Positions 7,837 through 9,023 of a stretch of DNA of 48,452 nt are shown in pieces. Position 1 is the stretch's first letter. Each line of letters opens with the position of its first letter. The stretch is from Candidatus Acidiferrum typicum. GTDB taxonomy: Bacteria > Acidobacteriota > Terriglobia > Acidiferrales > UBA7541. Under the pieces are notes generated by a model that made no database searches, had not been told where the DNA came from, and saw only the letters and a program-made list of their open reading frames with translations. A program made the translations under genes and the position numbers. The stretch covers positions 1 to 48,452 of the forward strand of contig JAOAPV010000082.1 in the NCBI GenBank assembly GCA_025463055.1, read 5' to 3'.

Positions 7837-7867
7837 GTCATCCCGCTTGCCCCGATCCTCGAGGGGA
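7837..7867. repeat. Dispersed repeat A, copy 1
   Basis: A 31-base unit starting GTCATCCCGCTTGCCCCG that recurs identically at 8946-8976 and in a shortened form at 9667-9715. About 110 bases further on (near 7950) another GTCATCCCG start leads into a different tail, so the unit behaves as an interchangeable module. Confidence 0.75.
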
Positions 7868-8249: not shown

Positions 8250-8255
8250 TATAAT
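8250..8255 (+). promoter_or_regulatory. Candidate -10 box (TATAAT) of the small-RNA-like unit
   Basis: A consensus TATAAT preceded by an 8-bp perfect hairpin (GGAGATGG at 8214-8221 with CCATCTCC at 8231-8238). No good -35 box is visible at the expected place. If active, transcription would begin near 8262, just before the first hairpin of the unit. Confidence 0.4.
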
Positions 8256-8261
8256 CCGATT

Positions 8262-8382
8262 ACTCGACACTCTTGTCGACATCGGCGTTCCCGCCGAGAA
8301 GGAGGTGATCCAGTGAGGTACGGTTTACGTTGAAGCAGTAGAGGAGGCGCTTGTGAGCTTACCGAGCGCCTCTCTCTTTTTT
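8262..8382 (+). ncRNA. Candidate structured small RNA carrying a full-length anti-SD complement
   Basis: About 120 bases organised like an independent RNA. It holds two consecutive perfect 6-bp tetraloop hairpins (TCGACA-CTCT-TGTCGA at 8264-8279 and TCGGCG-TTCC-CGCCGA at 8282-8297), then unpaired AAGGAGGTGATCCAG (8299-8313), then a Rho-independent terminator. The 15-base stretch is the exact complement of the universal 3' end of 16S rRNA, far longer than an ordinary ribosome site. It lies seven bases before a GTG that opens a six-codon frame (MRYGLR, 8314-8334). It could be a ribosome-binding RNA, a leader peptide with an attenuator for downstream genes, or a translated mini-ORF. I do not recognise it as a named family. 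Confidence 0.5.
8344..8382 (+). terminator. Rho-independent terminator of the small-RNA-like unit
   Basis: GAGGCGCT (8344-8351) pairs perfectly with AGCGCCTC (8365-8372) around a 13-base loop, followed by TCTC and six T residues (8377-8382). Confidence 0.75.
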
Positions 8383-8439: not shown

Positions 8440-8532
8440 ATGACGCACATTGCCATTCAGGAAAAGCGCGACGGCAAGGTTGTCGACTGGCTCGAACATG
8501 TCAGCGACGAGCAATACCGCGCGCGCAAGTAA
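8440..8532 (+). pseudogene. C-terminal remnant of a cupin protein (hydroxynitrile-lyase / carboxymuconolactone-decarboxylase-associated type)
   Basis: Thirty codons beginning [17 protein letters not shown] and ending SDEQYRARK match, from memory, the C-terminus of small manganese cupins such as Granulicella-type (R)-selective hydroxynitrile lyase, where this segment follows the last metal-binding histidine. The metal-binding cupin barrel that should precede it is absent, and the upstream sequence in this frame does not continue the family. There is no ribosome site before the ATG. It is therefore read as the surviving tail of a deleted gene; the stop lies nine bases before the next gene's ATG. 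Confidence 0.6.
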
Positions 8533-8540
8533 AGGAGATT

Positions 8541-8933
8541 ATGATGAGCACCAAGCCAGCAAGACCCGCACCGCAAAAACCAAATGACGCCCTAAAAGAC
8601 CGCCTTTCCAAAGTAAGCGAGATCACCATCACTGTGACCGGCAGAAAGTCAGGCCGAGCCATCTCCATCCCAGTCTGGTTCGTATTGGAAGGGGACAAGC
8701 TCTACCTCTTACCGGTGAGCGGTTCCGATACACAGTGGTACAAGAATGTGCTCAAGAACTCTTCGATCCAAGTCGACGCCGGCGGCGAACAAGCCGAACT
8801 CAGAGTGGTCCCCGTCACCGACCCCAAACAGGTCGCGTCCGTCGCAGAAAAATTCCGCGCCAAGTACGGCCCCAGCGACGTGAAAAAGTACTACTCGAAA
8901 TTCGACGTCGCCGTCATCGCCGACCTCCAATGA
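8541..8933 (+). CDS. Deazaflavin (F420)-dependent nitroreductase-family / DUF385-like protein
   Basis: A 130-residue split-beta-barrel protein of the Ddn-like nitroreductase family (formerly DUF385). The family signature ITVTGRKSGRAISIPVWFV occupies residues 30-50, followed by GDKLYLLPVSGSDTQWYKNVLKN, the usual cofactor-side segment. Members bind F420 or flavin and reduce quinones or nitro compounds; whether this host makes F420 cannot be told here. AGGAG stands five bases before the first of two adjacent ATGs. The gene directly follows the cupin remnant, and its last codons run into a copy of dispersed repeat A. Confidence 0.8.
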   Translation: MMSTKPARPAPQKPNDALKDRLSKVSEITITVTGRKSGRAISIPVWFVLEGDKLYLLPVSGSDTQWYKNVLKNSSIQVDAGGEQAELRVVPVTDPKQVASVAEKFRAKYGPSDVKKYYSKFDVAVIADLQ

Positions 8934-8945
8934 GCCTCACAGCCC

Positions 8946-9023
8946 GTCATCCCGCTTGCCCCGATCCTCGAGGGGAACCCGCTCGCGCCCCTTGCGGGGG
9001 TGTGAGGGATCTGCTTTTCTCTG
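8946..9023. repeat. Dispersed repeat A, copy 2 (long form)
   Basis: The 31-base unit of 7837-7867 is repeated exactly at 8946-8976 and continues with an AACCCGCTCGC...GTGAGGGATCTGCTTTT tail to about 9023. The same tail ends the third copy at 9667-9715, where the middle of the unit is missing. Confidence 0.7.

Follow-up and report, generated by a model that had tools for sequence, protein, structure and literature searches.

RNAs that act on the ribosome itself, not on single mRNAs, are few; among mini-ORFs, lambda bar is an example of a minigene. Examples of bacterial RNAs acting on the ribosome are listed in PMC8938821, which also describes SprF1 of Staphylococcus aureus, a small RNA that lowers translation initiation and attaches to ribosomes via its purine-rich 5' segment. 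Minigenes, i.e. mini-ORFs of two codons, are described as exerting their effect through translation rather than through a product (PMC8708949), and for S. aureus PMC13009471 documents extended SD-aSD helices combined with non-canonical starts. Two Rfam families bear most directly on the locus considered here. CC2171 (RF01867) is a Caulobacter/alphaproteobacterial sRNA, a homolog of which is reported to be transcribed in Mesorhizobium huakuii as MH_s33 (PMC5596092), and for which Rfam 15 gives one additional covarying pair (PMC11701678). Ms_IGR-5 (RF02471) is an actinobacterial sRNA with reported ribosome footprints in M. abscessus and M. smegmatis (PMC4974804) and transcripts in Streptomyces (PMC8079986, PMC8780764). 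Beyond their original descriptions, the literature consulted gives no function for either family. A search of titles and the beginnings of abstracts, mainly in the open literature, yielded no RNA family defined by a full complement of the 16S tail, nor the Acidobacteriota RNA described below.

Layout and conservation of the unit

The window analyzed here is the whole 48,452-nucleotide stretch of a Candidatus Acidiferrum typicum contig (JAOAPV010000082.1, positions 1 to 48,452). A first-pass annotation had proposed that it carries, at 8250-8382, a small-RNA-like unit composed of a TATAAT box, two tetraloop hairpins, a complement of the 16S rRNA 3' end, a six-codon GTG frame and a terminator, and all of these elements were found there:

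8250..8255, plus strand: -10 box TATAAT, read from the sequence
8264..8279, plus strand: hairpin 1 (TCGACA-CTCT-TGTCGA), 6 bp with a CTCT tetraloop, at the predicted 5' end of the RNA; from sequence and fold
8282..8297, plus strand: hairpin 2 (TCGGCG-TTCC-CGCCGA), 6 bp with a TTCC tetraloop, 1 nt from the 16S-tail complement; from covariation
8299..8313, plus strand: AAGGAGGTGATCCAG, the 15-nt 16S-tail complement, read from the sequence
8299..8311, plus strand: AAGGAGGTGATCC, conserved 13-mer, an extended Shine-Dalgarno complementary to all of the 16S tail beyond helix 45
8313..8333, plus strand: six-codon frame GTG AGG TAC GGT TTA CGT TGA (MRYGLR), the frame being kept in relatives
8315..8318, plus strand: GAGG, a second SD-like element, at -16 relative to the stop
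8344..8382, plus strand: intrinsic terminator with stem 8344-8353 / 8363-8372 and T run 8377-8382; from fold and covariation

The two hairpins and the terminator all appear in the predicted fold of the unit, which is a moderate gain over shuffled sequences (z -2.1; 6 of 200 of these do equally well or better). The only listed plus-strand ORF entering its 3' part is a 59-aa GTG ORF from 8353, which starts within the terminator and has no Pfam match; a stretch inside this ORF (8440-8532) resembles the tail of a longer protein. No tRNA or tmRNA was detected in the window. An identical 30-nt intergenic stretch, TCATCCCGCTTGCCCCGATCCTCGAGGGGA, is present on either side of the unit at 7838-7867 and 8947-8976, and has the appearance of a dispersed repeat.

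An exact 20-mer recurs in 16 of 61 relatives, all of the same genus, and a covariance model built from 14 of these 20-mer loci matched 19 of the 36 genomes searched in the genus and 44 of the 399 in the class, the latter all belonging to one family (f1). A second covariance model, for which 35 units representing both sub-types were used, recovered the unit in 47 of 89 f1 genomes, in 28 of the 50 high-quality ones among them and in 7 of 13 genera. The proposal had been made to depend on conservation in relatives, which is thus borne out, and we have little doubt that the unit is a real, conserved small-RNA gene. Since the 15-mer reads as the 16S 3' end in reverse complement, one might suspect chance or a broken 16S piece read backwards; this reading is refuted by the conservation of the unit and retains only a vanishing probability, given that the complementarity stops at the start codon and lies within a conserved, covarying unit. 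Presence within f1 is patchy: 22 of the 50 high-quality genomes are without the unit, and a renewed search of 13 of these with a loose cut-off gave nothing better than E 0.02, indicating that it is not essential. The three best weak model matches in genomes without the unit (L307-L309) proved on reading to be plain terminators. The search pattern occurs in 43 named contigs, all of them from MAGs titled Acidobacteria or a subgroup thereof (several Candidatus Acidiferrales), with no other title; an exact-pattern search found none in viral contigs, and the unit as query had no match among plasmids. The genome itself carries a second, divergent copy (L176; G000:C71:82023-82038, minus strand), which is of the CTG type and in which no hairpin 1 was seen.

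In the 47 units that have 68 nt or more of upstream sequence, the best -10-like hexamer is TATAAT or TATACT in 38, and hexamers scoring 5 or 6 of 6 were found in 39, versus 12 of 47 shuffles. In 13 of the 47 units the distance from the end of the best hexamer to the 13-mer is 24-26 nt, and in 26 it is 42-45 nt; the shorter distance fits the absence of hairpin 1, which forms in 14/14 units of the first alignment and is absent on reading from 14 divergent loci (L049-L062). In the 35-unit alignment 99.0% of the hairpin 2 cells are paired, with both-side changes in 3 of 6 pairs, the corresponding values for the terminator being 98.7% and 5 of 11. Taken together, the two elements have 98.8% of cells paired and 8 of 17 pairs changed on both sides, versus 2.9 in shuffles, while slid controls are 39-61% paired. 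These -10 positions, along with compensatory changes in both hairpin 2 and the terminator, make the unit look like a promoter-hairpin-terminator RNA gene, in keeping with its initial description as small-RNA-like.

The terminator stem is near-invariant in the first 14 units, beyond a terminator's needs, which would be consistent with a dual-function trans-acting sRNA, i.e. one in which ribosome docking and the mini-ORF merely stabilize or gate the RNA, and another part pairs with mRNAs or binds a protein. Such an effector could lie in the stem-loop of the terminator, whose loop reads TGTGA..CC, or between the stop codon and the stem, and short-ORF RNAs with two functions are known, e.g. rnTrpL/peTrpL (PMC10117765, PMC7298713). 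However, over 35 units the stem covaries as an ordinary helix, and the stop-to-stem stretch varies in both length and sequence; hence we regard this explanation as a serious possibility, but a minority one.

The 16S-tail complement and the six-codon frame

The 16S rRNA of the same genome (L145) ends in CTGGATCACCTCCTTTCT, i.e. ..GTAGCCGTAGGAGAACCTGCGGCTGGATCACCTCCTTTCT, and the 15-nt complement claimed in the first-pass annotation is therefore perfect in its own genome. It is also kept in relatives, but the conserved part is 13 rather than 15 nt long. This core faces exactly GGATCACCTCCTT of the 16S tail, pairing from the base directly behind helix 45. The conserved stretch ends where helix 45 starts, and the two bases that follow the core, AG in this unit, are AG, TG or GG in relatives, or are replaced by one C. 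The model hits include two variants of the core, one in L044/L072 (one place) and one in L306, both being A-to-G changes that keep G-U wobble pairing with the tail. The 13-mer/16S-tail duplex has an energy of -24.8 kcal/mol, as against a mean of -6.2 and a best value of -16.2 upstream of 49 ORFs mechanically listed in the window (ATG start, at least 150 aa), some of which are not genes. In the predicted folds the 13-mer is only partly unpaired, with RNAalifold pairing part of it with the pyrimidine tail of the terminator; the complement is perfect and its predicted accessibility partial. The pattern AAGGAGGTGATCCNND, which leaves out 16S genes, occurs twice in the 5.33-Mb genome, both times in such units, versus 0 occurrences of the reversed control and ~0.1 expected by arithmetic. 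All models and patterns contain the motif, and members lacking it would therefore be missed. Judging from these sequence comparisons, the 13-mer has very probably been kept for pairing with the 16S tail.

All 47 distinct f1 units have a stop at codon 7, none earlier and no indel, and the divergent second copy (L176), a 48th unit, has the same six-codon frame and stop on reading. The stops are TGA in 43, TAA in 3 and TAG in 1 of the 47 units, and the starts are GTG in 36 and CTG in 11, with neither ATG nor TTG. With a strong SD, a start, very few codons and a stop, the frame has the make-up of a mini-ORF or minigene. In a synonymous-change test on f1, in which the sequence pairs are not independent, frame 0 gave 0.56 observed versus 0.20 expected and frame -1 gave 0.52 versus 0.22; since frame -1 scores nearly as high, the test does not single out the mini-ORF frame. 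The argument from the stop codon is statistically weak, because almost any mix of the observed columns yields a stop. The earlier suggestion that MRYGLR is translated thus stays plausible through the constancy of frame and stop, but draws no specific support from synonymous change; on balance, the f1 frame is likely to be coding and is probably translated.

Era and YbeY are among the factors that use the 3' end of 16S rRNA as their site, and CTG is a rare start codon. A non-coding RNA that binds the 16S tail as a decoy or guide in maturation or quality control, with an incidental frame, would be consistent with those CTG 'starts', and with a match that covers the whole tail, stops exactly at helix 45 and exceeds the need of a ribosome-binding site. 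We nevertheless consider it quite unlikely, given that the start spacing and stop position are constant while the sequence between them varies, that the stops interchange, and that relatives in another family (f6) show synonymous changes of their coding frame. The peptide begins with MRY in 44 of the 47 f1 units (exceptions: MRF twice, MRV once), as might be expected were the six-residue peptide itself the functional product; this is very improbable, as residues 4-6 vary and the invariant residues correspond to the invariant nucleotides TGAGGTA.

Longer relatives and flanking genes

In the wider search AAGGAGGTGATCCNND was present in 121 of 399 genomes at class level and in 57 of 396 at phylum level; the reversed control was counted in 12 of the 399. 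Reading of 60 class stretches identified 37 units, comprising 5 from f1 (one truncated at the edge of its contig), 22 from f6, 7 from f7 and 3 from f13; the other 23 (L191, L202-L204, L209-L221, L223-L228) lie inside coding sequence or before an ordinary ORF start, or contain no unit. Reading of 29 phylum loci added 6 units (L241-L243, L263, L265, L266), the remaining 23 not being units. The relatives from other Acidobacteriota families (L180-L190, L192-L201, L205-L208, L229-L235, L263, L265 and L266, the last three from f69/f78) are longer, and show promoter-like boxes, the full 16S-tail complement, a rod-like predicted RNA and a GC-rich end hairpin, which the predicted folds place ~150-240 nt after the 13-mer. 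Their ORFs are 13-18 codons long, e.g. MSIESDCNLSEGAEA, MSTDCSLSTREVIGR, MNDSIAGSTNLEGEVAES and MDSNRYGLVEVASS. In f6, 39.7% of the single-base codon differences are synonymous versus 18.7% expected, and this excess makes translation better supported in f6 than in f1. The ORF after the unit in L198 and L205 resembles rpmE (bL31).

A GAGG is located 15 nt before the stop in 30/30 distinct ORFs from f6, f7, f13 and f69/f78, although the length of the ORF varies. In f1 it is at -16 and present in all 28 model hits shown, which were picked by the model; this position follows from the TGAGG in the collecting pattern and the constant frame. A further GAGG is present at -6 in 18 of 19 f6 ORFs, and an extra one in one f7 and one f13 ORF. 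As a strong binder of 16S the second GAGG holds for some families only: the median pairing energies are -16.4, -14.4 and -17.5 kcal/mol in f7, f13 and f69/f78, versus -7.3, -10.4 and -8.7 in shuffles, whereas the pairing is weak in f1 (-8.3 vs -6.3), where the idea hardly holds, and in f6 (-8.2 vs -9.2), where it does not. The f45 units (L241-L243) have a short ORF, the 13-mer and ATG without the GAGG, and hence this geometry is not universal.

The first-pass annotation had also raised the possibility of an attenuator or leader of a neighboring gene, and the strong SD, short ORF and terminator indeed resemble an attenuator, with a gene containing DUF2255 and F420H2-quinone-reductase matches lying downstream at 8541. 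However, the unit ends in a terminator of its own, and no flanking protein cluster recurs in at least four of the 47 f1 loci, except two that overlap the unit itself; a few clusters are common to two or three loci, and there is no conserved co-directional downstream gene. This indicates that the unit is not the leader of a particular gene. Half of the 22 f6 loci (11) have an upstream cluster in common, and 10 have in common a downstream cluster, which is on the other strand; in f7 an upstream cluster is common to 6 of 7 loci and some downstream neighbors are shared, the latter being a point in favor of a cis-acting leader. With neighbors partly shared in this manner, the free-standing nature of the unit is less clean in f6 and f7. 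Given also that the downstream genes of the alphaproteobacterial relatives on plasmids (see below) differ where annotated, a cis-acting role appears extremely improbable. An RNase P RNA gene is present near one f7 unit, on the other strand (L196, 942-1344).

Proposed role and relation to known RNA systems

Dozens of related species retain the unit, suggesting a mini-message dedicated to ribosome binding. We propose that the gene would give rise to a free-standing transcript with a predicted length of ~115-120 nt, an ultra-short mRNA built for ribosome capture. Its 5' hairpins would lead straight into the 13-nt segment pairing with the entire single-stranded 16S tail, and this pairing would dock the 30S subunit with GTG (or CTG) at normal Shine-Dalgarno spacing, whereupon the six codons would be translated up to the conserved stop. 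In light of the variability of its last three residues, the useful product would probably be not the peptide but ribosome loading, i.e. occupying or holding 30S/70S or reporting their availability, with any regulation acting by occupancy; the unit may in this manner titrate or mark 30S subunits, as had been suggested at the outset. For this reading as a whole, namely a mini-mRNA capturing 30S by whole-tail pairing, with six translated codons and a role in ribosome capture, we judge the chances to be about even. The published ribosome footprints on Ms_IGR-5, the first part of which resembles the corresponding element here, speak for it, as does the precedent set by SprF1. The unit provides a compact comparative definition (whole-tail complement, mini-ORF, terminator), and should pairing with the whole tail prove functional, the capture of ribosomes by such a dedicated RNA would be directly testable.

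We put forward more tentatively, as a lesser possibility, that the unit is a branch of a hitherto unrecognized class of mini-mRNAs spanning Acidobacteriota, Alphaproteobacteria (CC2171) and Actinobacteria (Ms_IGR-5), on which a ribosome is loaded and then parked at the stop. The start site of such a free-standing RNA would pair with the complete 16S tail, and the second SD-like GAGG, seen 15-16 nt before the stop in most Acidobacteriota forms, would hold the ribosome with the last sense codon in the P site. Ribosome parking, if true, would amount to an RNA-based reservoir, sensor or brake for ribosomes. The unit may link the two Rfam families, and it brings in new relatives.

No Rfam family matches at its gathering score anywhere in the window, and none thereby claims the unit. 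CC2171 matches it with 25.3 bits (E 8.5e-4 on 221 bases), below its gathering score of 75; the match of CcsR1 (19.8 bits vs 65.3), like three weaker Rfam rows, was put down to chance, being of a terminator-like kind. Like the unit, in which a GTG start directly follows the 16S-tail complement, the CC2171 consensus has GAAAGGAGGUGAUCCAGUG and then a terminator. Eight CC2171-like plasmid loci, out of 21 records matched, were read, one of which (L272) was left out as it has a longer frame. The other seven (L267-L271, L273, L274), from Methylobacterium, Azospirillum, Skermanella and Sphingobium, encode an ORF of 24-26 aa beginning MSHC/MSNC from the GTG/ATG at this place, followed by a terminator-like end. 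The exact 13-mer is present in one of the seven (L268), with one or two changes in the others, and GAGG at -15 in one of the seven. No listed feature lies under the match in these plasmids, for which the PLSDB tables are incomplete, and in Skermanella the loci follow hflX. Unlike the unit, these loci have an ORF ~4x longer, in which TCATTGTC faces, as read, GACAATGG before the terminator; neither the sequence nor the fold of the unit, with its MRYGLR frame, contains an MSHC-type ORF with a facing GACAATGG.

The best match of Ms_IGR-5 is an f6 relative (L186, 28.2 bits), below the cut-off of 45, and at the unit itself there is no match with E up to 5. Its best match in the same genome (20.5 bits) is at an unrelated place, and two weak matches there (L236, L237) were rejected on reading. 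Ms_IGR-5 begins with GGAAGGAGGUGGUCC and ends in a GC-rich hairpin. The purine-rich segment of the unit is a perfect complement of the 16S tail, with a predicted accessibility that is partial; SprF1 differs in being a type I antitoxin, antisense to SprG1, and the 16S-tail match is complete in the unit. With minigenes the unit shares a very short ORF, but it has six codons on an RNA gene of its own rather than lying within another transcript. Hence the description of the unit as an undescribed system stands only in part: no Rfam family covers it at its cut-off, but CC2171 shares its design and Ms_IGR-5 its 5' element, and while not a member of either by their cut-offs, the unit resembles both in build.
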